Source: Cardinium endosymbiont cEper1 of Encarsia pergandiella
GTDB taxonomy: Bacteria; Bacteroidota; Bacteroidia; Cytophagales; Amoebophilaceae
DNA: 64,000 nucleotides
Assembly: GCF_000304455.1 (NCBI RefSeq)
Contig: NC_018605.1
Location: forward strand, 310,035-374,034
Direction of reading: 5' to 3'
Part shown: positions 41,964 through 59,563 of the stretch, in pieces
Layout of the letters: each line of letters starts with the position of its first letter
How positions within the stretch are numbered: the first letter of the stretch is position 1
Made by a program: the position numbers and the translations under genes
Notes under the pieces: model-generated
Told to the model about the DNA's origin: nothing
The model's input: the letters and a program-made list of their open reading frames with translations, nothing else
Databases searched by the model: none

Positions 41964-43305
41964 GAGTTTGTAAATAAAATTGTGTAAATGCTTATTTGTT
42001 ATTAAGAAATCTATCGTTATAAATAATCGGTAGTAATAAATAAGTCATAATCAATGGAATCACAACAAATAAATATAGATCCAAATCTACTAAAAGAATT
42101 ATCGAAGTCTATTAAGAGTGAAAAAGATTTAGCTATTCTGAGCAAGCAACTATTAAAACTGACGGTAGAACGTGCTATGGATGCAGAGCTAGACGATCAT
42201 CTTGGCTATTCAAAGCATTCTATAGAAGGTAGGAACACGGGAAATAGTCGTAATGGTTACTCTCTTAAGCGCTTGAAGGGTGATTTTGGCGAAATGGAAA
42301 TTAATAGGCCACGAGATCGAAACAGCACGTTCGATCCTCAAATTGTTCGCAAAGGTCAAACTAGGTTCACTGATTTTGATGAACAAATTCTGTCACTTTA
42401 TGCCAGAGGGATGACCACCCGAGATATTTCAGATACGTTCAAAGAGCTCTATGGTAGAGAGGTATCACACAGTTTAATTTCGAAAGTAACTGAATCTGTT
42501 ATTGAGGAGATTACTATTTGGCAGAATCGTCCATTAGAAAGCGTATATCCCCCATACTGTATTTAGATTGTATCGTTATCAAGTCTCATGAAGATAAACG
42601 CGTAATAAATAAATCAATTTATTTGGCATTAGCCATTAATTGTCAAGGCCAAAAAGAATTACTTGGTTTGTGGATAGCAGAAACTGAAGAAGCAAAATTT
42701 TGGCTATCCCGTATTAACTGAATTAAGTAATCGTGGCATTAAGGATATTTTTATTGATTGTGTTGATGGATTAACTGGATTTCCAGATGCTATTAATACA
42801 GTATTTCCAAAAACCAAAATCCAGTTATGCATTGTTCATCTTATTCGTAATTCCTTACGTTATGTATCCTATAAGGATATGAAGTCCGTCGCATCGGATC
42901 TTAAACTTATTTATCGGGCTATTTCTATTGATCAAGAGGAAGAAGAGCTTCTTATTTTTAGTGAAAAATGGGATAAAAAGTATCCAGCCATTAGTCGTTC
43001 ATGGCATAAAAATTGGAGTAATATTATAACTATTTTCGACTATCCTGATGAAATACGAAAAATTATTTATACCACTAATGCGATAGAATCACTTAATAGT
43101 GTGATTAGAAAATCGATCAATAACCGTAAATTTTTTCCTAATGACCAATCTGCATTAAAAGTGGTATATTTAGCTATACAAAAAGCATCACAAAAGTGGA
43201 CTATGGCTCTACATGATTGGAGAGCCGCTATCAATCGATTCGCTATAGAATTTGAAGGAAGAGTTTCTTAAAAAATGGCACTTACACAAAATCGTTTACA
43301 GGCTC
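41964..43305 (+). mobile_element. IS256-family insertion sequence, inactivated
   Basis: A 1342-bp element. The left end GAGTTTGTAAATAAAATTGT (41964-41983) matches the complement of the right end (GAGCCTGTAAACGATTTTGT, 43305-43286) at most positions, and the match continues for another eight bases. It encloses a broken IS256-type transposase gene. No target duplication is visible, so an end may have eroded or the borders are off by a few bases. It separates the phosphopantetheinyl transferase gene from a long non-coding stretch. Confidence 0.8.
42054..43271 (+). pseudogene. IS256-family (Mutator-type) transposase, two frameshifts
   Basis: Three pieces read as one transposase. Piece 1 (42054-42566) has LTVERAMDAELDDHLGYSKH, NTGNSRNGYSLK and LYARGMTTRDISDTFKELYG. 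Piece 2 (to about 42720) has PILYLDCIVIK with the first catalytic Asp, then QKELLGLWIAETEEAKFWLS. Piece 3 (to 43271) has IDCVDGLTGFPDAINTVFP with the second Asp, QLCIVHLIRNSLRYV, and TTNAIESLNSVIRKSINNR with the catalytic Glu. The first break is in a run of five C (42550-42554); the second is one extra C near 42711. The motifs are otherwise intact, so inactivation looks recent. Confidence 0.85.
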
Positions 43306-52154: not shown

Positions 52155-55100
52155 TACACCCCCTAACTATTTTCGTCTTTTTGGATAAACAGCTCTAATG
52201 CCTCTTTAGCAGCTTTTTCTAATGCTTGTCCTATGGCTGGATCCAGGTATATATTGGCTATTTGTACATCTATATTGAGTGTTTCTTGCGCCATATGCTT
52301 CATCTCTGTTAAATAGATATAGCCAGCCGCATGGCGTAGGTCATAAAGCCGTTCGGCCAGTTTGATAAACAGCACAGAAAGGTGTAGATGTTCTTCTTTA
52401 ATCGCTTGTGCTAGTCTATGCTGTACATAAAGCAAAGAAGGGTGTTTTAGCGCTTCCCGTTTATCTATTTTTATTAGATTAGATACAAAAGCATAGACGC
52501 CTAAGTTATAATGTTCCTTAACATAAGAAAGAGGCAAACAGATATGACGCACCAATCCATAGAGTAAAGCAGCGTAAACTGCTTTAGGGGAGTGAAAAGT
52601 CCAATCTACTACCAATTCGGCAATGCCTACTGCCCGTACATAAAATAATTGTCCGCAGACATGCCGCTTAAAGCTAAAGTGCTTCCTGAGTAATAAAAGT
52701 ATACCTAAAATGGTTTTTACATCAATAGAATCTCTTTTACACGGTGATGTACAGATATGGTCATGGAATTGCATGAGCTTTATCATCGAGTCGGCTTGCT
52801 CCTTAGGGGTAGCAGGCGCTTCTATAGTTAAGGAATCTATAGGCAATTTAGCCGTCATTTTATCCAGAATATCGCTAACATTTATGGGAAGTACCATCAA
52901 CATAGTAGGTTTTTGGTCAAAAAAAGCTTCTAGATAGCCATAATGGGCACGGACTACACTAGATAAGGTATCTTGCTCCAGGTCTATAGATGGTGGCGGC
53001 TTTTTTTTAAGGTCTGTATAATCTATTTCATCATAGCATTTTTTTACTTTGGGGAGATTATCAGGATCAGAAGTGGCCAGACTAATGACTAGTGCAATAG
53101 CTTGAAAATCCATATAGACAGGACCACTGTTGTCAATAGCATCGTCTTGTTTAACTTGCAAAGTGGTAGGATGGAGTCCTACGTTAACAATGGGTGGAAT
53201 GGTTTCTGTGTGTTTACCAATCCGTAAAATAGCCTTAACCAATGCGTAGGTTATTTGATCGATATCACATATTATATCGGTACTTAATTGATTACTAGGA
53301 GGTCTTTCTTTTTCTACCAGTAATTTAGGTGGATGATCTGTCTTCTGAGACAAAGTAACTTCTATTGTACCAATCAGCTTATCTAAAGTAATTTGAGTAG
53401 GTTGCAATAGTGTATGGGCGTTGGCAGTTTCTCTGCTGTTAAAATAGTAAATCCAATCGTAAAATTTATGGATAATGGTTTGGAAATCTTCTTTATAAAG
53501 AGCTGTATGGTTGTCTAAAAAGGAAATAGATTCTTCTACTTTACGTACTACTTGTGTTAAAATGGATCCATACCTTTTAGGAGAAGCAGTACGTGTAGAA
53601 GGAACCAGAGCGGCCTCATAGAGGGATGCTTTTAGCTGTTGTGAGGCTCTAATCTTTTCTTGATCTTCTAGATAAATATTTCGGCTGGTAAGCTTATTTA
53701 TTTGTGTTTTCAAACAAATAATAATGGACAGTAGGAATAGGCCTGCTATAAATATTTCCAATAAGGAGCATAATACTGGATGCGAGAATCCAGTATAAAC
53801 CGGATGTATGATGGACACCAATACAGTAACGGATACAACACTTATACCAACATAGAGCGGCAACATCCATAAAATTACAGCAAGATGGCTTAAAGACAAA
53901 GAAAGGTTAAAGTTGGGCTCTAGCGAATGCGACCAGCCCCAAAGTATATTTAAGGGAAGATAAACCGATAAAATTATTAGCCAAATTAGGCCAATAAACC
54001 AGTTTGGAATGGCTCTTACTTTTTTCGAAATAGCATAGAAAAATGGATAGCCTAAGCAGCAAGCTGATCCAATAATATGGAACATAAGCCAATAAAAATG
54101 ATTTGTAATACGCGTTACAAAATAATATAGTAATCCAGTCATGAAAAGATAACATCCTATATATGCTATTGTAGAATGGCTGGGTTTTAGATTGGTTAAG
54201 GTCATTTTTTTATTTTTCCAGGAATTCCTAATGGCTTCTTTTCGTTCCGCACGCTTCCGGGAATCCTCTTGTTGGATTTGTCTAAAAGTGTTATCGGGTT
54301 TCACCCAACCGGTACCATCTGGCTGTTTCAAGAGATAGTGGGCTGCTAGCATAGCCAGGCCATTGGCTAGCATACAAGGGAAAGCTCCATCTATTTCTAT
54401 TATAGGTTCAATCCATATGTTCCAGGCCACAATAGTAAGTAGACCGGTAGCCATACCGATCAAGGCTGTAAAAGAGCCAGTTCGGAAACCCAAAATAGCT
54501 AAAATAAAGGGAGCGGTTAATATAGGTACCTTGCAATCAAGGGACCAATACACTAATTTCAACAGATCTTTGTACTTAAAAGCTACCATCATAGATAATA
54601 GACCAATTATGAGTGTCGTAGTTTTAGCTATTTTAAGCTTACGGGCATCAGAAATTTCTTTTTGTAGGCTCTGTACGATATCATGCGCGATCATAACCGA
54701 ACAAGTATTTAAAGCAGAATCAGCTGTAGACATTGCCATAGCGAGCAAACTAATCGTAATAAAACCCTTAAAAAGAGGAGGGATATGGGTTACTATATAA
54801 CTCCATATCTCTTCTTTGGGTAAATCTGGTGCCGACACAAAAGTAAATAAACCGATTACAATTATAAAAACCTGAATCATACAGCCAAAAACAGAAGCAT
54901 GCCAAAAAACTTTTTGGGCCTGAGTGGGACTAGAAGCCATATAAACGCGTTGCATAAGAGCGGGTTCTACTATATTACTTGACATATCAGCTAGCAAAAG
55001 TAGCACCATAGCCATTAGTTTTGTGTTAAATAGTTGAGTAAACTGAAATTTAGTGTAAGTTTGCACTATGGGAATAATTGTTGGAGCAGGTTTTCCTACA

Positions 55101-55857
55101 TTTACAAACATAAGCCAAGAAAGAAGTGGAATAATAATTGAAAAAGTTATAAATTGAAACACATCCGTAAAAGTAACGGCGCGAACTCCTCCAAACATAG
55201 AATAGAAAATAAGGATTAAGGTAGAAAATATTGGTATTATATATGGGTTAGCTGAGGTTACGCACATACTAATAGCATGGGACATTATGATGATTTGAGA
55301 AGTAATTAGAATGATGTTGCGACAAATACTCACCAATACAGTTATACATCTTGGATATCTACCATAGATGCTACCCATTGTCTCTGCTGTTGAGAAGTGT
55401 TGCATGAATGGCCCCATACGTAAGGAGAATTTGCTAATAGTACACATACCAAAAGGCACTATAAGCAAAACAACTATAAACCACAGACCAAGGTCATGAA
55501 TACACTCTACATTACGAATTAACCCACCTCCTTCAAAAAAAGTAGCCAACACCGTAGCCACCAAAGTAGCCGTAGCAAATTGTTTATTCCCTATTGCATA
55601 TTCCCGAAAAGTAGTTCTTTTTCTACTAAAGTAAATACCCATTAGTAAGGTTAACCCCAAAAAAGCCCCTATTATTACAATAGGCATATTTAAGTAAATC
55701 ATAGGCGTCAACACGTTAAAAAGGTATAAGAAGTATTATATTAATATCATACTTTGTATAATAAAGATTTTGTTTCAAAAAATCAAAAACAAGAAGGACT
55801 ATTCGGGTGTACCAAAAGATTGCTACAATTAAGCTTTGTCTCGTTTGAGGCGATATG
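52155..55857. repeat. Tandem duplication, unit 1 (about 3.7 kb)
   Basis: The unit runs from CACCCCCTAACTATTTT at 52155 to GTCTCGTTTGAGG near 55853. Unit 2 starts with the same CACCCCCTAACTATTTT at 55858. Each unit contains one giant receptor gene plus about 150 bases of nearly identical 5' flank (for example AAGAAGTATTATATTAATAT and CTTTGTATAATAAAGATTTT). The two outer parts are close to identical while the middle has diverged. Confidence 0.85.
52163..55714 (-). CDS. Giant receptor: SSS symporter + second membrane block + degenerate kinase + RelA/SpoT-HD-like domain, copy 1
   Basis: A 1183-residue multidomain membrane protein (GTG 55714; ATG 55702 gives 1179). Residues about 8-435: sodium/solute-symporter fold with about 13 membrane helices, with FSTAETMGSIYGRYPR, MFGGVRAVTFTDVFQF and the sodium-site motif MAMSTADSALN (327-336). 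About 455-505: conserved basic loop (LLKQPDGTGW, QQEDSRKRAERKEA). About 514-668: six or seven further helices. About 680-945: a region like a histidine kinase, ending VVRAHYGYLEAFF then TMLMVLP as in HATPase domains, but the N-box reads ALVKAILRIG and no phospho-acceptor His is evident. About 1000-1160: like the RelA/SpoT HD domain (FIKLAERLYDLRH, AQETLNIDVQIA). The metal ligands are replaced: HD by Tyr-Gly (1052-1053), ED by Arg-His (1056-1057). CbrA has the SSS-kinase pairing; the HD-like addition is unusual. A signalling role is inferred. Confidence 0.75.
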   Translation of the reverse strand: MLTPMIYLNMPIVIIGAFLGLTLLMGIYFSRKRTTFREYAIGNKQFATATLVATVLATFFEGGGLIRNVECIHDLGLWFIVVLLIVPFGMCTISKFSLRMGPFMQHFSTAETMGSIYGRYPRCITVLVSICRNIILITSQIIIMSHAISMCVTSANPYIIPIFSTLILIFYSMFGGVRAVTFTDVFQFITFSIIIPLLSWLMFVNVGKPAPTIIPIVQTYTKFQFTQLFNTKLMAMVLLLLADMSSNIVEPALMQRVYMASSPTQAQKVFWHASVFGCMIQVFIIVIGLFTFVSAPDLPKEEIWSYIVTHIPPLFKGFITISLLAMAMSTADSALNTCSVMIAHDIVQSLQKEISDARKLKIAKTTTLIIGLLSMMVAFKYKDLLKLVYWSLDCKVPILTAPFILAILGFRTGSFTALIGMATGLLTIVAWNIWIEPIIEIDGAFPCMLANGLAMLAAHYLLKQPDGTGWVKPDNTFRQIQQEDSRKRAERKEAIRNSWKNKKMTLTNLKPSHSTIAYIGCYLFMTGLLYYFVTRITNHFYWLMFHIIGSACCLGYPFFYAISKKVRAIPNWFIGLIWLIILSVYLPLNILWGWSHSLEPNFNLSLSLSHLAVILWMLPLYVGISVVSVTVLVSIIHPVYTGFSHPVLCSLLEIFIAGLFLLSIIICLKTQINKLTSRNIYLEDQEKIRASQQLKASLYEAALVPSTRTASPKRYGSILTQVVRKVEESISFLDNHTALYKEDFQTIIHKFYDWIYYFNSRETANAHTLLQPTQITLDKLIGTIEVTLSQKTDHPPKLLVEKERPPSNQLSTDIICDIDQITYALVKAILRIGKHTETIPPIVNVGLHPTTLQVKQDDAIDNSGPVYMDFQAIALVISLATSDPDNLPKVKKCYDEIDYTDLKKKPPPSIDLEQDTLSSVVRAHYGYLEAFFDQKPTMLMVLPINVSDILDKMTAKLPIDSLTIEAPATPKEQADSMIKLMQFHDHICTSPCKRDSIDVKTILGILLLLRKHFSFKRHVCGQLFYVRAVGIAELVVDWTFHSPKAVYAALLYGLVRHICLPLSYVKEHYNLGVYAFVSNLIKIDKREALKHPSLLYVQHRLAQAIKEEHLHLSVLFIKLAERLYDLRHAAGYIYLTEMKHMAQETLNIDVQIANIYLDPAIGQALEKAAKEALELFIQKDENS

Positions 55858-58800
55858 CACCCCCTAACTATTTTGGTCTTTTTCGATAACGGTACACAGC
55901 TCCAATGCTTCTTTAGCAGCTTTTTCTAATGCTTTTCCTATTGCTGGGTCCAGGTATGTATGAGCGATCTGCACATCTATATTGAGTGTTTCTTGCGCCA
56001 TATGCTTCACTGTTGTTAAATCTATATAGCCAGCCGCATGGCGTAAATCATAAAGCCGTTCGGCTAGTTTGATAAACAGTACAGAAAGTTGTAAGTGCTC
56101 TTCTTTAATCGCTTTTTCCAGTCTATTCTGCACATAAAGCAAAGAAGGATGGTCTAACGCTTCTCGTTTATCTATTTTTATTATATTGGATACAAAAGCA
56201 TAAACGCCTAAGTTATAATGTTCCTTGATATAAGAAAGTGGCAAACAGGTACGGCGTACCAATCCATAAAGCAAAGCAGCATACACCACCTTAGGAGAGT
56301 GAAAAGCCCAATCTACTACCAATTCGGCAATGCCTACTGCCCGTACATAAAACAATTGTCCGGAGACATGCCGCTTAAAGCCAAAATGCTTCCTGAGCAG
56401 TAAAAGTATACCTGAAATGGTCTTTAGATCCATAGGATCTGCATGATAAGATGCTTTACAGATATGGTCGTGGAATTGCATGAGTTTCATCATGGAATCC
56501 GCTTGCTCCTTAGGGGTAACAGGCGCTTCTATAGTTAAGGAATCTATAGGCAATTTAGCGGTCATCTTATTGAGGATATCCGTAATATCTATGGGCAGTA
56601 CCATCAACATAGTAGGTTGTTTTTGGTCAAAAGCAGCTTCTAGATAGCCATAATGGACACGGACTACACTAGATAGGGTATCCTGCTCCAGGTCTATAGA
56701 TGGTGGGGCCTCTTTTTCTTTTTTAGGATCCATATAATCTATTTTATCATAGCATTTTTTTACCTTGGGCAGATGATCAGGATCAACAGTATCCAGACTG
56801 ATGACTAGCGCAATAGCTTGAAAATCGATATAGACAGGACCACTGTTGTCAATAGCATCGGCTTGTTTACATTGCAAAGCAGTAGGATGGAGTGCTACGT
56901 TAATAATAGGTGGGGTTTCAGTTGGCTTACCCATTCGTAAGATAGCCTTAACCAATGCGTAGGTTACTTGATGGATATCACATACTATACCAGTACTTAA
57001 TCGACTATTAGGTAGTCTTACTTTTTCTACCAGTAGTTTAGGTGGGTGATCCATCTCCTGGGACAAAGTAGCCTCTACTGTACGAATCAGTTTATCTAAA
57101 GTAATTTGAGTAGGTTGCAATAGTGCATGTGCTTTGGTAGCTTCTCTGTTGTTAAAATAGCAAATCCAATCGTAAAATTTATGGATAATGGTTTGGAAAT
57201 CTTCTTTATAAAGAGCTGTATGGTTGTCTAAAAAGGAAATAGATTCTTCTACTTTACGTACTACTTGTGTTAAAATGGATCCATACCTTTTAGGAGAAGC
57301 AGCACGTGTAGAAGGAACGAGAGCGGCCTCATAGAGGGATGCTTTTAGCTGTTGTGAGGCTCTAATCTTTTCTTGATCTTCTAGATAAATATTTCGGCTG
57401 GTGAGCTTACCTATTTTAACTTTTAAGCAAATAATAATGGAAAATATAAATATACTTACTATCAATAACGGAAATAGGAGAGATAATAGTGAGAAAGAAA
57501 ATCCAATATAGATCGGATAAATGGCTACTAGCAATGTGACTGATGTAATCCCTATACCCAGATAAAGCGGAAATACCCATAAGATTAAAGCAAGGTGGCT
57601 TAAAGCCAGAGATATAGCAAAGATTGGGTGTACCATAGACCACCATTCCCAAAGCAAGTTTACAGGTAAATAAATAGCTAGGACTATTAATAAAGCTAAA
57701 CCCATAAACCAATTGGAAAGCACTTTGCTAAAGAAAGTTTTAGAAGATGTAAAAAGGACACCTACAACCACTTGACAAATGGCCCAATAGATGCGATTGG
57801 GTTTAATAAACCAATACCCCAGAATAGCAATAGCAATTATATAGAGCCCTATGAAGCGTAAGGTAGCTAAGTTGGCCAAGGTAGCTTTTCTATTGGCCCA
57901 AGCGTTTTGAATCGCTTCTTTTCGCTCGGCGCGTTTCCGGGAATCCTCTTGTTGGATTTGTCTAAATACGTTATCGGGTTTCAGCCAACCGGTACCATCT
58001 GGCTGTTTGAGTAGATAGTGTGCGACCATCATAGCTAGTCCATTGGCCAACATACAAACAAAGGAGCCGTCTATATCAGTTGTGGATTTAACCCACTTGT
58101 TCCAAGTTAAAATAGCCAAGGCGCCTGTACCCATACCTATTAAAGCCGTACGAGACGTACCCCGAAAGCCAAAAACAGCTAACAAAGCTGGCAAGGTTAT
58201 TACTGGAAGAGAAAAAGAAAAGGATAGCATCAGTAAATCCAAAAGATCTTTGGAATAAAAAGTTAAAAACATACTGGATAGGCCCACTAATAGAGTAGCC
58301 CATCTAGCTATTTTAAACTGGTATACATCAGTAAATTTTTTTCTCTTTTGTAGGATCTTTACAATATCATTGCTAACTATAACCGAACAGGCGTTTAAAC
58401 AAGAATCAGCTGTAGACATAGCCATGGCTAAAAAACTGATACAAACTAGCCCCTTAAAAAGGGGTGAAATATTAGTCATGATATAGTCCCATACACCTTC
58501 CACTGGTAATGTTGACTCACCCCCTATAAAAACAAATACACCAATCAGAAGTATAAATCCACTGATCAAAAGACATAAAAGACTCACATACAAAAAGACT
58601 TTTTTAGCTTGAGTAGGTCCAGAGCACATATAGACCCTTTGCATAATTGCAGGGCACCCTAAATCAGGAACCATAATGCATAGCATCGTTGCCCACATAC
58701 CCAATGATTTAATATCAAAGTGAAATAAACTGTTCAATAGACTATTCCATTGAAATTTTTTTTCAGTTTGTAACAAAGCAACCACCTCTACCATTGATTT

Positions 58801-59563
58801 ACCTGTTTGTTTGAATATACACCAAGCTAAAAGTGGAATAATTATAGCAAAAGTTAAAAACTGCAATACATCTGTATAGGTGACCGAACGCACACCTCCA
58901 AACATAGAATAAAAAATAAGAACTAAAGTAGCAAGAATGCTAATGATGTGGGAATTAAATAAATCTAGAGCGATACACATGGTAATCACCTGGGATATTA
59001 CGACAATTTGCATAGTAATGATGCAAATAGAACTGCAAATACCAACTAGAGCCGTAATAATCCTTGGCCAAGTACCATATAAATTACCCATCATCTCTGG
59101 GACAGAAAGGCTTTGCATAAATGGCCCCATACGTAACATCAAATGACTAAAGAGCCATACACTAAAATTATCCACAAATAGAATAAGAATAATCCAGTAA
59201 ATACCAACTTTATGAACATACTCTACATTACGCATCATTCCTGCCGCAGTGTAATAAGTAGCCAACACCGTAGCCACTAAAGTAGCCGTAGCAAACTGCT
59301 TATTCCCCACTGCATATTCTCGAAAAGTGGTTTTTTTTCTGCTAAAGTAAATACCTACTATTAGTGTGAATAATAAAAAAGCCCCTACTTACAATAGGCA
59401 TATTGAAGTAAATCATAGGTGTCAACATGTTAAAAAGGTATAAGAAGTATTATATTAATATCATACTTTGTATAATAAAGATTTTGTTTCAAAAAATCAA
59501 AAAAAGAAGGGTTATTGGGGTGTACCAAAAGATTGCTACAATCAAGCTTTGTCTCGTTTGAGG
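55858..59563. repeat. Tandem duplication, unit 2 (about 3.7 kb)
   Basis: The second unit begins where unit 1 ends, with no spacer, and closes with GTCTCGTTTGAGG at about 59551-59563. It carries the second receptor gene and the same 5' flank. Identity is near complete over the cytoplasmic half of the gene (compare 53460-53700 with 57170-57410) and much lower over the membrane helices. Confidence 0.85.
55864..59310 (-). CDS. Giant receptor, copy 2, first membrane helix lost by a frameshift
   Basis: A 1148-residue paralogue of the adjacent gene with the same domain order: symporter-like domain, conserved loop (LLKQPDGTGW, QQEDSRKRAERKEA), second membrane block, degenerate kinase and RelA/SpoT-HD-like end with the same replaced residues (LLYGLVRR). 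The open frame starts at GTG 59310 (Met-Gly-Asn-Lys-Gln). In copy 1 about 40 more N-terminal residues encode the first helix. The same sequence exists here (AFLLFTLIVGIYFSRKKTTF) but a two-base deletion near 59387 puts it out of frame with the expected start near 59425. Either translation begins at the GTG without helix 1 or this copy is decaying. The rest is open and conserved, which argues for recent damage or for use of the shorter form. Confidence 0.7.
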   Translation of the reverse strand: MGNKQFATATLVATVLATYYTAAGMMRNVEYVHKVGIYWIILILFVDNFSVWLFSHLMLRMGPFMQSLSVPEMMGNLYGTWPRIITALVGICSSICIITMQIVVISQVITMCIALDLFNSHIISILATLVLIFYSMFGGVRSVTYTDVLQFLTFAIIIPLLAWCIFKQTGKSMVEVVALLQTEKKFQWNSLLNSLFHFDIKSLGMWATMLCIMVPDLGCPAIMQRVYMCSGPTQAKKVFLYVSLLCLLISGFILLIGVFVFIGGESTLPVEGVWDYIMTNISPLFKGLVCISFLAMAMSTADSCLNACSVIVSNDIVKILQKRKKFTDVYQFKIARWATLLVGLSSMFLTFYSKDLLDLLMLSFSFSLPVITLPALLAVFGFRGTSRTALIGMGTGALAILTWNKWVKSTTDIDGSFVCMLANGLAMMVAHYLLKQPDGTGWLKPDNVFRQIQQEDSRKRAERKEAIQNAWANRKATLANLATLRFIGLYIIAIAILGYWFIKPNRIYWAICQVVVGVLFTSSKTFFSKVLSNWFMGLALLIVLAIYLPVNLLWEWWSMVHPIFAISLALSHLALILWVFPLYLGIGITSVTLLVAIYPIYIGFSFSLLSLLFPLLIVSIFIFSIIICLKVKIGKLTSRNIYLEDQEKIRASQQLKASLYEAALVPSTRAASPKRYGSILTQVVRKVEESISFLDNHTALYKEDFQTIIHKFYDWICYFNNREATKAHALLQPTQITLDKLIRTVEATLSQEMDHPPKLLVEKVRLPNSRLSTGIVCDIHQVTYALVKAILRMGKPTETPPIINVALHPTALQCKQADAIDNSGPVYIDFQAIALVISLDTVDPDHLPKVKKCYDKIDYMDPKKEKEAPPSIDLEQDTLSSVVRVHYGYLEAAFDQKQPTMLMVLPIDITDILNKMTAKLPIDSLTIEAPVTPKEQADSMMKLMQFHDHICKASYHADPMDLKTISGILLLLRKHFGFKRHVSGQLFYVRAVGIAELVVDWAFHSPKVVYAALLYGLVRRTCLPLSYIKEHYNLGVYAFVSNIIKIDKREALDHPSLLYVQNRLEKAIKEEHLQLSVLFIKLAERLYDLRHAAGYIDLTTVKHMAQETLNIDVQIAHTYLDPAIGKALEKAAKEALELCTVIEKDQNS

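Follow-up and report, generated by a model that had tools for sequence, protein, structure and literature searches.

Relation to described systems

The closest described counterparts of the proteins studied here are sensor kinases that start with a sodium-solute symporter (SSS) domain, and enzymes that hydrolyse the alarmone (p)ppGpp by means of an HD domain. The first of these groups, represented by CbrA, MxtR/CrbS, PrlS and the SSS-histidine kinase proteins of Rickettsiaceae, combines an N-terminal SSS sensor part with a cytoplasmic DHp-CA fold. Both features are shared by the products of two tandem genes, here designated W1 and W2, which lie in a 64,000-nucleotide stretch (the window) of the genome of the Cardinium endosymbiont cEper1 of Encarsia pergandiella (contig NC_018605.1, positions 310,035 to 374,034). 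In W1 and W2, however, most kinase residues have been lost, no STAC or PAS domain is listed in a Pfam scan (E up to 10), the place of STAC being occupied by a six-helix membrane block, no response regulator was found in the source genome, and the chain ends in an HD output domain. Sequence and predicted structure suggest that these genes belong to a family of transporter-coupled (p)ppGpp hydrolases, within which W1 and W2 would represent a functional pseudo-hydrolase branch, a reading that we consider probable and hold with moderate confidence.

On the hydrolase side, the long RelA/SpoT homologues (RSH; Rel, SpoT and RelA) share the HD fold with W1 and W2, which differ from them in being membrane-bound and in having no synthetase match, the synthetase being located on a separate protein in these genomes. 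RelA also carries an inactive HD. The kinase-like part recalls RetS, which is the top Foldseek match of the W1 C-terminal model and which works in a two-component network, whereas no response regulator accompanies the receptors described here; a RetS-GacS co-complex is among the Foldseek matches listed. The small alarmone hydrolases, notably those designated rickSpo (PMC3153485), likewise share the HD_4 fold, and the catalytic set is kept in live members; in contrast to rickSpo, the HD forms here the tail of a membrane receptor of ~1150 residues, and the catalytic set is missing from W1 and W2. From the part of PMC3153485 that concerns Candidatus Amoebophilus we infer that the rickSpo expansion reported for that organism consists of genes of the present family.

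Members of this family have probably been counted before: a section of PMC6232779 lists a set of spoT / sodium glucose cotransporter homologs, with 18 members in Amoebophilus, seven in Cardinium cPpe, three in cEper1 and two in cBtQ1, which is named there as a gene-family expansion, that section being silent on architecture, on dead or live members and on mechanism. The relevant part of PMC5615194 reports fusions of SLC5sbd proteins to a histidine kinase in Rickettsia, and the spread of such proteins to Amoebophilus and Cardinium. An SSS-HD fusion is not described in the portions of PMC5615194, PMC4316617, PMC12342168 and PMC12560110 that were available, and the term ppGpp does not occur in the available portion of the SSS review PMC7918813; in excerpts of PMC6232779, PMC12039267 and PMC3153485 the SSS/HD pairing is annotated in passing. 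Searches of a library of open-licence papers did not reveal any account in which transporter-coupled alarmone hydrolases are treated as a system. The parts of W1 and W2 belong to known families, and what appears to be new is the HD output on SSS sensor proteins.

Domain architecture and predicted folds

A first-pass annotation of the window, made from the sequence alone, had proposed two giant receptors at this locus, each composed of a symporter domain, a second membrane block, a kinase-like region and a degenerate RelA/SpoT-type hydrolase domain. Both open reading frames were recovered on the minus strand at the places given (1183 and 1148 residues; Table 1), and each of the four parts was borne out. 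Pfam SSF and HD_4 both exceed their curated cut-offs in W1 and W2, with HD_4 (PF13328) scoring 29.8 bits in W1 and 32.4 bits in W2 against a cut-off of 27.2. Full-length W1 was modelled using AlphaFold2 on an alignment of 72 relatives (mean pLDDT 85.8), and residues 706-1183 were modelled separately (pLDDT 81.3). In a fold search with the full-length model, the SSS part was found to resemble the SSS transporter SiaT (5nva/5nv9; TM-score by target 0.84), and human CHT1 was matched both in fold and by phmmer (E 1.9e-12). Residues S329, T330, D332 and S333 are among the columns conserved in at least 90% of the 72 rows, and the Ser and Thr residues of the MSTADS helix presumably correspond to the Na2-site residues of sodium symporters. 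The second membrane block is predicted to consist of six further helices, the last of which is very long.

The middle part of the W1 C-terminal model resembles histidine-kinase catalytic domains, the best match being HK853 (Z 12.8 over 137 residues, rmsd 4.0), and RetS, NtrB and others are also matched by this kinase-like part; of the best 50 Foldseek matches listed for the C-terminal model, nearly all are histidine kinases. The HD of this model matches full-length SpoT (7qpr) with a Z-score of 21.5 over 201 residues (rmsd 3.1), and other Rel and SpoT entries at Z 13-18.5. Furthermore, the family HD profile aligns with Rel (1vj7) across RKSG, HP, LHDVVEDT and KLADRLHNMRT. Chance similarity of the HD region is ruled out by the Pfam, profile and fold matches. 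A synthetase domain was not found in the W1 or W2 chains, RelA_SpoT being matched only at two other loci of the source genome.

A conserved branch of HD domains lacking the hydrolase residues

HD domains were classified by nine active-site positions, those carrying R, H, H, D, E, D, D, R and N being termed live and those with the residue pattern of W1 and W2 being termed dead. The nine residues are H, R, Y, G, R, H, E, R and D in W1 and H, R, Y, G, R, R, E, R and D in W2, in agreement with the ligand replacements (Arg, Tyr-Gly, and Arg-His or Arg-Arg) that had previously been read by eye. Both proteins lack the catalytic and metal set (His, His-Asp, Glu-Asp, Asp) of an active (p)ppGpp hydrolase.

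In total, 163 HD domains were examined. From 160 domains mapped, the 149 that span model positions ≤12 to ≥140 were aligned, representing 18 genomes, and 14 further domains were added (15 rows minus L218, which repeats the L009 gene). The HD_4 search itself returned 222 matches, within which the 163 are not nested, as they include RSH HDs missed by HD_4. The dead pattern was observed in 35 of the 163 (27 of 149 and 8 of 14), and is confined to Cardinium, where it is present in eight genomes. In a tree of 110 pseudokinase regions, built after removal of duplicates and of any region shorter than 170 residues, all 26 dead-group rows fall on one side of a branch with an SH-aLRT support of 100; eight dead-group members and three members of the Gln-Asn group (see below) among the 14 further HDs were assigned by residues alone, outside the tree.

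The dead domains possess a motif of their own: H1018, R1027, Y1052, E1121, R1122, Y1124 and D1125 (W1 numbering) are invariant in all 27 aligned dead HDs, the same columns in the 90 aligned live HDs being R, H, H, D, R, H and N. The ratio of nonsynonymous to synonymous substitution (dN/dS) of the dead HD is 0.11-0.30 in eight pairs, some of which share sequences, and that of the live HD is 0.19 and 0.22 in the two of three pairs for which it was computable. Given the single branch, the invariant motif and the low dN/dS, the dead domain seems to be retained for some function and not to be decaying, and the same three observations disfavour neutral decay. Three open frames of the source genome (690-747 residues; L028:4234-6306, L029:4192-6270 and L029:8343-10586) encode the membrane block, the pseudokinase and a dead HD without an SSS match.

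The first-pass annotation had also suggested that the dead HD might provide a binding site for (p)ppGpp or for a partner protein. In Rel, we take one Arg to contact the nucleotide base and an Asn to lie nearby. Every one of the 27 aligned dead HDs has exchanged these two residues, for His and Asp respectively, so that ordinary (p)ppGpp binding by W1 and W2 is less likely and the first suggestion is weakened; the domain may instead bind a partner protein.

Live and trap-like relatives of W1 and W2

All nine active-site residues are kept in 93 of the 163 HDs, located outside RSH proteins (90 of 149 and 3 of 14). One such protein, P0001 (L023:3148-6624), is encoded in the source genome itself and displays the domain order of W1 with an intact HD. 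The view that W1 and W2 are solute sensors with a dead output thus holds as regards their sensor-like design, but the dead output characterizes one branch only, with live sisters that include P0001. The profiles of SSS, pseudokinase and HD occur together in 103 of the 149 aligned proteins, spread over 16 of the 21 Amoebophilaceae genomes, which answers the question of whether the architecture recurs in other symbionts; relatives of P0001 were found in 20 of these 21 genomes, in some through the SSS part only. In cEper1, a further stretch (L022:2979-6409) comprises an SSS-pseudokinase gene, P0004, followed by a live HD, P0003, in another frame, and the cBtQ1 stretch that matches P0004-P0003 is one continuous frame. 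Genome G007 holds 19 full-length live and nine dead receptors among the 149, several of them in tandem, and one further dead full-length copy among the 14. The remaining HDs include 19 of RSH proteins (18 not intact and one intact) and eight other variants.

Another group carries Gln-Asn (seven HDs) or Arg-Asn (one HD) in place of the catalytic Glu-Asp, and retains R, H, H, D, D and N (5 of 149 and 3 of 14). One copy was found in each of eight Cardinium genomes (Table 1), and judging from their residues these receptors may be described as natural trap-like alarmone hydrolases.

The combination of the second membrane block and the pseudokinase is largely a property of this family. In a sample of 291 genomes representing the order, all strong matches (best E ≤2.9e-56) came from the family, in 17 of its 21 genomes; elsewhere the lowest E-value was 8.8e-9, with matches at ≤0.001 in 48 of the remaining 270 genomes. 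Among 395 genomes of the phylum, at a limit of 1e-10, two outside genomes were matched (4.4e-12 and 1.0e-11). These outside matches are presumably histidine kinases. A scan of genome contigs with the W1 pattern, the reach of which is limited to close relatives, returned three loci, all from Cardinium. A plasmid search with P0001 matched 263 records, of which two, both from Cardinium, cover at least 80% of the protein. In this plasmid search, receptor genes were noted on CP101108.1 and CP101109.1, plasmids of the Cardinium of Dermatophagoides farinae.

Probable loss of kinase chemistry

Kinase residues were counted against the motifs of a plasmid-encoded protein of Candidatus Megaera polyxenophila (L188, 931 residues), in which SSF, HisKA and HATPase_c are present with intact motifs and which matches residues 18-639 of P0001. 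The counts cover SSS-HD rows of more than 1050 residues (69 live, 22 dead and eight other). In the loosely aligned column of the phospho-accepting His, W1 has T and W2 has A, and His is found in none of the 22 dead and in two of the 69 live rows. No residue of the N, G1 and G2 boxes of the ATP site is present in W1 or W2. Over the dead rows, the N-box Asn and the G1 Asp were counted 0 times, the two G1 glycines once and 0 times, and the three G2 glycines 0 times each; in the live rows, the first G1 glycine was never seen, and the G2 glycines were seen in 2, 2 and 0 rows. The eight other rows, which include the Gln-Asn group, contain the Asn in seven and the Asp in all eight. These counts, together with the DHp-CA fold match, agree with the earlier description of a kinase-like region without phospho-acceptor or N-box, and kinase chemistry has very probably been lost in the family.

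Response_reg was not matched in the source genome, although it was found in 12 of 14 control genomes, and the four HATPase_c matches of the source genome all lie at other loci. A phosphorelay is rejected on these searches together with the residue counts. Our interpretation is that the module descends from a sensor kinase and now serves for transmission.

A proposed separation of (p)ppGpp synthesis and hydrolysis

Synthetase domains (PF04607) were found in 18 of the 21 Amoebophilaceae genomes. The full catalytic HD set is absent from 18 of the 19 alignable RSH HDs, and by eye also from the RSHs of genomes G007 and G009. The sole intact RSH HD belongs to G016, where that RSH is the only HD_4 match, and each of the 16 genomes in which the RSH HD is not intact has at least one live HD on another protein. 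Of the remaining genomes, G004 carries a partial synthetase but lacks any HD_4 match, G014 carries a live HD but yielded no synthetase, and G005 and G006 yielded neither.

We presume the synthetase to be marked by the motifs RxKS, D..A.RI, YxSLH and EVQIR, with close variants, and all four are present in 21 of 23 synthetase sequences, that of G003 and the G004 fragment lacking one each. Two short RSHs of 375 residues (L025:2871-3998 and L026:3242-4369) consist of a synthetase and a barely recognisable HD, their chain stopping directly after the synthetase.

Diverged sensors, uniform outputs and other transporter types

In genome G007, two tandem arrays (G007:C1:181000-211000 and 313000-349500) contain live receptors of ~1160 residues whose sensor halves have diverged and whose output halves are homogenised. 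Between live copies of this genome, the SSS part has a median identity of 0.51 with 0.55 of fourfold sites differing, and the pseudokinase and HD have an identity of 0.87 with 0.17-0.20 of fourfold sites differing. The dead copies display the same trend, identity and fourfold difference being 0.54 and 0.47 for the SSS part, 0.88 and 0.12 for the pseudokinase, and 0.95 and 0.11 for the HD. The identity between W1 and W2 rises from 53% over the SSS part to 88% over the HD, with a change near codons 650-700, and this pair is the only clear case among the three dead copies of cEper1 that were measured. The HD is better conserved than the SSS part in most of the pairs compared, one exception being W1 versus L009 of cBtQ1 (SSS 0.89, HD 0.86). 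Because silent divergence is low in the output half, these values point to gene conversion as the process by which output halves are kept uniform. Diverged sensors joined to a uniform output are what would be expected of a receptor set that shares one output.

The SSS domain is not the only transporter type concerned. Three fusions of a major facilitator superfamily (MFS) protein with an HD were identified in genome G015 (665-674 residues, with live residues; L153:2729-4753, L154:1967-3964 and L155:2186-4204), which on sequence represent a second transporter type joined to a hydrolase-type HD. On two Megaera plasmid stretches (L202:2977-4909 and L203:2510-4334), genes for an MFS protein and a SpoT-like hydrolase overlap tail to tail. 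The same overlap on other Megaera plasmids is suggested by the match list.

Gene structure and probable expression of W1 and W2

According to the relevant sections of PMC5698495, cEper1 has 12 putative sodium-solute symporters, all of which are expressed, and among its top-expressed genes by RNA sequencing are CAHE_0796 (rank 7 in males and 9 in females) and CAHE_0352 (ranks 11 and 22). Starting from rpoC (AL022_RS01565), the genes encountered are tRNA-Val, a gene of 235 residues, transposase remains, genes of 697, 510, 125, 731 and 490 residues, and W1, which by this count corresponds to AL022_RS01610, i.e., CAHE_0352 (tags as given in those sections of PMC5698495; the numbering may be displaced by small open frames). 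No SSS genes other than W1 and W2 lie nearby. CAHE_0796 is probably the dead-group copy c833, an assignment made by position and exclusion that is weaker than that of W1. The terms spoT, ppGpp, stringent and HD domain do not occur in the available text of PMC5698495. Broken transposase open frames were seen by eye at window positions 42054-43271, between rpoC and the gene of 697 residues.

The start of W2 is broken. A small length difference past the start that it shares with W1, recognized by pairwise alignment and three-frame translation, puts ~35 initial codons out of register with the rest; translation would start from an internal GTG, the first helix is gone, and one TAA was counted inside the W2 match. 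The source genome totals 944,930 bases and consists of two contigs, the first measuring 887,130 bases; 24 W1-like matches are listed in it, including fragments and SSS-only genes.

Table 1. Features of W1 and W2 (window positions), and members of the Gln-Asn/Arg-Asn group (positions on their own stretches)
Feature	Position	Strand	Basis
W1, 1183 residues: SSS, six-helix membrane block, pseudokinase, dead HD	52163..55714	-	Open reading frame, Pfam, full-length model
W1 SSS (SLC5-type) domain, residues 10-465, including the MAMSTADSALN helix	54320..55687	-	Pfam SSF, SiaT/CHT1 fold match, phmmer
W1 second membrane block, residues 513-703, six helices, last one long	53606..54178	-	Full-length model
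W1 pseudo-histidine-kinase (DHp-like helices and HATPase-like fold), residues 715-955	52850..53572	-	Fold matches HK853, RetS, NtrB
W1 pseudo-hydrolase HD domain, residues 970-1182	52169..52807	-	Pfam HD_4 E 5.9e-07; SpoT 7qpr Z 21.5; replaced residues
W2, 1148 residues from internal GTG; domain order of W1, N-terminus lost	55864..59310	-	Open reading frame, Pfam, frameshift
W2 SSS domain, first helix missing, limits approximate	58021..59310	-	Pfam SSF E 7.6e-13
W2 pseudokinase, limits approximate	56551..57285	-	Family profile match, residues 682-914
W2 pseudo-hydrolase HD domain, limits approximate	55870..56514	-	Pfam HD_4 E 9.2e-08; nine-position residues
Out-of-frame 5' remnant of W2, first ~35 codons	59311..59428	-	Pairwise alignment and three-frame translation
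W1 upstream region, near-identical to W2 upstream region (about 59429-59563)	55715..55850	-	Direct reading
Gln-Asn/Arg-Asn group members	P0002 = L024:3310-6663; counterparts L186, L187, L146, L132, L204, L205, L206		Nine-position residues

Interpretation and alternative explanations

According to the reading that we favour, the SSS part of a live receptor would bind or carry a solute, and its state would be passed through the six-helix block and the kinase-like module so as to alter the activity of the HD. Because the HD of live receptors would destroy (p)ppGpp and the soluble RSH enzymes would make it, the membrane receptor would act as an eraser of the stringent-response signal, with its transporter-like part as the sensor. 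A nourished cell would erase (p)ppGpp, and a starved cell would not, so that the RSH product would accumulate. W1 and W2 would retain the sensor and the output fold after loss of the chemistry. It is tentatively suggested, at less than even likelihood, that they serve as regulatory partners, either in mixed dimers with live receptors or by docking to RSH, and possibly also as ordinary transporters.

Several observations weigh against this reading. The division of labour between RSH and receptors reflects few evolutionary events, so that the 16 genomes against one do not represent independent cases. Moreover, the RSH HD of Amoebophilus is partly kept (Y, H, H, D, K, D, E, Y, K), and this organism is given in the corresponding part of PMC3153485 as Rel[HS], i.e., hydrolase-competent, in addition to its rickSpo[H] expansion, although by its residues that HD looks inactive, contrary to the listing. 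In cEper1 itself, only one full-length live receptor was found, a second (c565) being split by a frameshift, while seven copies belong to the dead clade, including the broken W2 and c652. Of the 69 live rows, 29 retain the N-box Asn, 42 the G1 Asp and 25 the second G1 glycine, and the kinase-like module of some relatives may still bind a nucleotide weakly. Uniform outputs are not universal: Amoebophilus copies lack them, with ~0.6 of fourfold sites differing throughout, and three dead copies of cEper1 have medians of 0.45 (SSS), 0.53 (pseudokinase) and 0.39 (HD). The pseudokinase tree is a quick one, subject to the caution that long branches come together where the dead clade begins, and W1 is equated with CAHE_0352 by gene counting and not from an annotated record. 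Finally, a complete set of live residues need not imply (p)ppGpp as the substrate, since related HDs act on or bind other nucleotides, complexes of MESH1 with NADPH and with PAPS and a (p)ppApp hydrolase being among the matches.

A more far-reaching version of the favoured reading, which seems rather unlikely in its entirety, is an eraser-and-reader system for (p)ppGpp. The live receptors would be solute-gated erasers, the Gln-Asn group would be a trap to which the alarmone binds uncut, and the output of W1 and W2 would be a control domain through which the alarmone state or the live receptors gate uptake. Two-component nutrient sensing would then have been replaced by many diversified transporter sensors on one alarmone module, kept uniform in Cardinium by recombination.

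Among the alternatives, the dead HDs are judged unlikely to be readers themselves, in which case their altered pocket, carrying Arg and His at former metal-ligand positions, would gate the transporter by metal-free binding of (p)ppGpp or a different phosphate ligand; several residues would nevertheless fit this view. The first His position is Arg in 27 of 27 dead HDs and the Glu position is Arg in most members, and a loss of metal with a gain of positive charge would suit phosphate binding; in addition, a separate group in seven of eight genomes has Gln-Asn for Glu-Asp with the other residues kept, and the solved structures matched include a small alarmone hydrolase with the E74Q mutation. What counts against readers in the W1/W2 group is the replacement, noted above, of the Arg and Asn that we take to hold the nucleotide.

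It is less probable still that W1 and W2 are plain solute transporters whose C-terminal half is a functionless, decaying remnant. Cardinium and Amoebophilus genes that are probably these have been called sodium or proline symporters (in parts of PMC3486910, PMC5698495 and PMC8831229), the start of W2 is broken, fragments of the family lie in the source genome, and symporter/HD fragments are given in a section of PMC12039267 as repeat-element candidates in another Cardinium. Such a remnant is, however, at odds with the conservation of the dead HD across eight Cardinium genomes, with its invariant new motif and low dN/dS, with the HD being better conserved than the SSS part in most of the compared pairs, and with the persistence of the three SSS-less copies as open frames.

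We think it very doubtful that the live HDs hydrolyse a different nucleotide, such as (p)ppApp, NADPH or PAPS, and that the receptors are unrelated to the stringent response. The MESH1 complexes and the (p)ppApp hydrolase among the HD_4-type matches would fit such a role, but Rel/SpoT catalytic domains rank first in both the sequence and the fold comparisons, and the synthetase proteins encoded in the same genomes have no intact hydrolase themselves. Genuine CbrA-kind sensor kinases signalling by phosphorylation can be dismissed as most improbable, for despite the shared SSS start and histidine-kinase-like fold, and the N-box Asn and G1 Asp kept in some live relatives, the dead group has none of the phospho-His, N-box Asn, G1 Asp and G2 glycines, the live rows have hardly any phospho-His or G2 glycine, and a Response_reg match is missing from the source genome.

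Should transporter-coupled (p)ppGpp hydrolysis be confirmed, a bacterial family would have uncoupled (p)ppGpp synthesis from hydrolysis and placed hydrolysis under transporter-like membrane sensors, as exemplified by G007, where 19 full-length copies with an intact site were mapped in a genome of 1.2 Mb. This would explain why many apparent symporters, now read as devices for nutrient uptake, have been retained and amplified, and it would provide an example of a sensor kinase rewired to a second-messenger output. The live, trap-like and dead members would constitute natural sets of alarmone hydrolases for enzyme work, and the link from host nutrients to growth state in uncultured symbionts of insects and amoebae would become testable.

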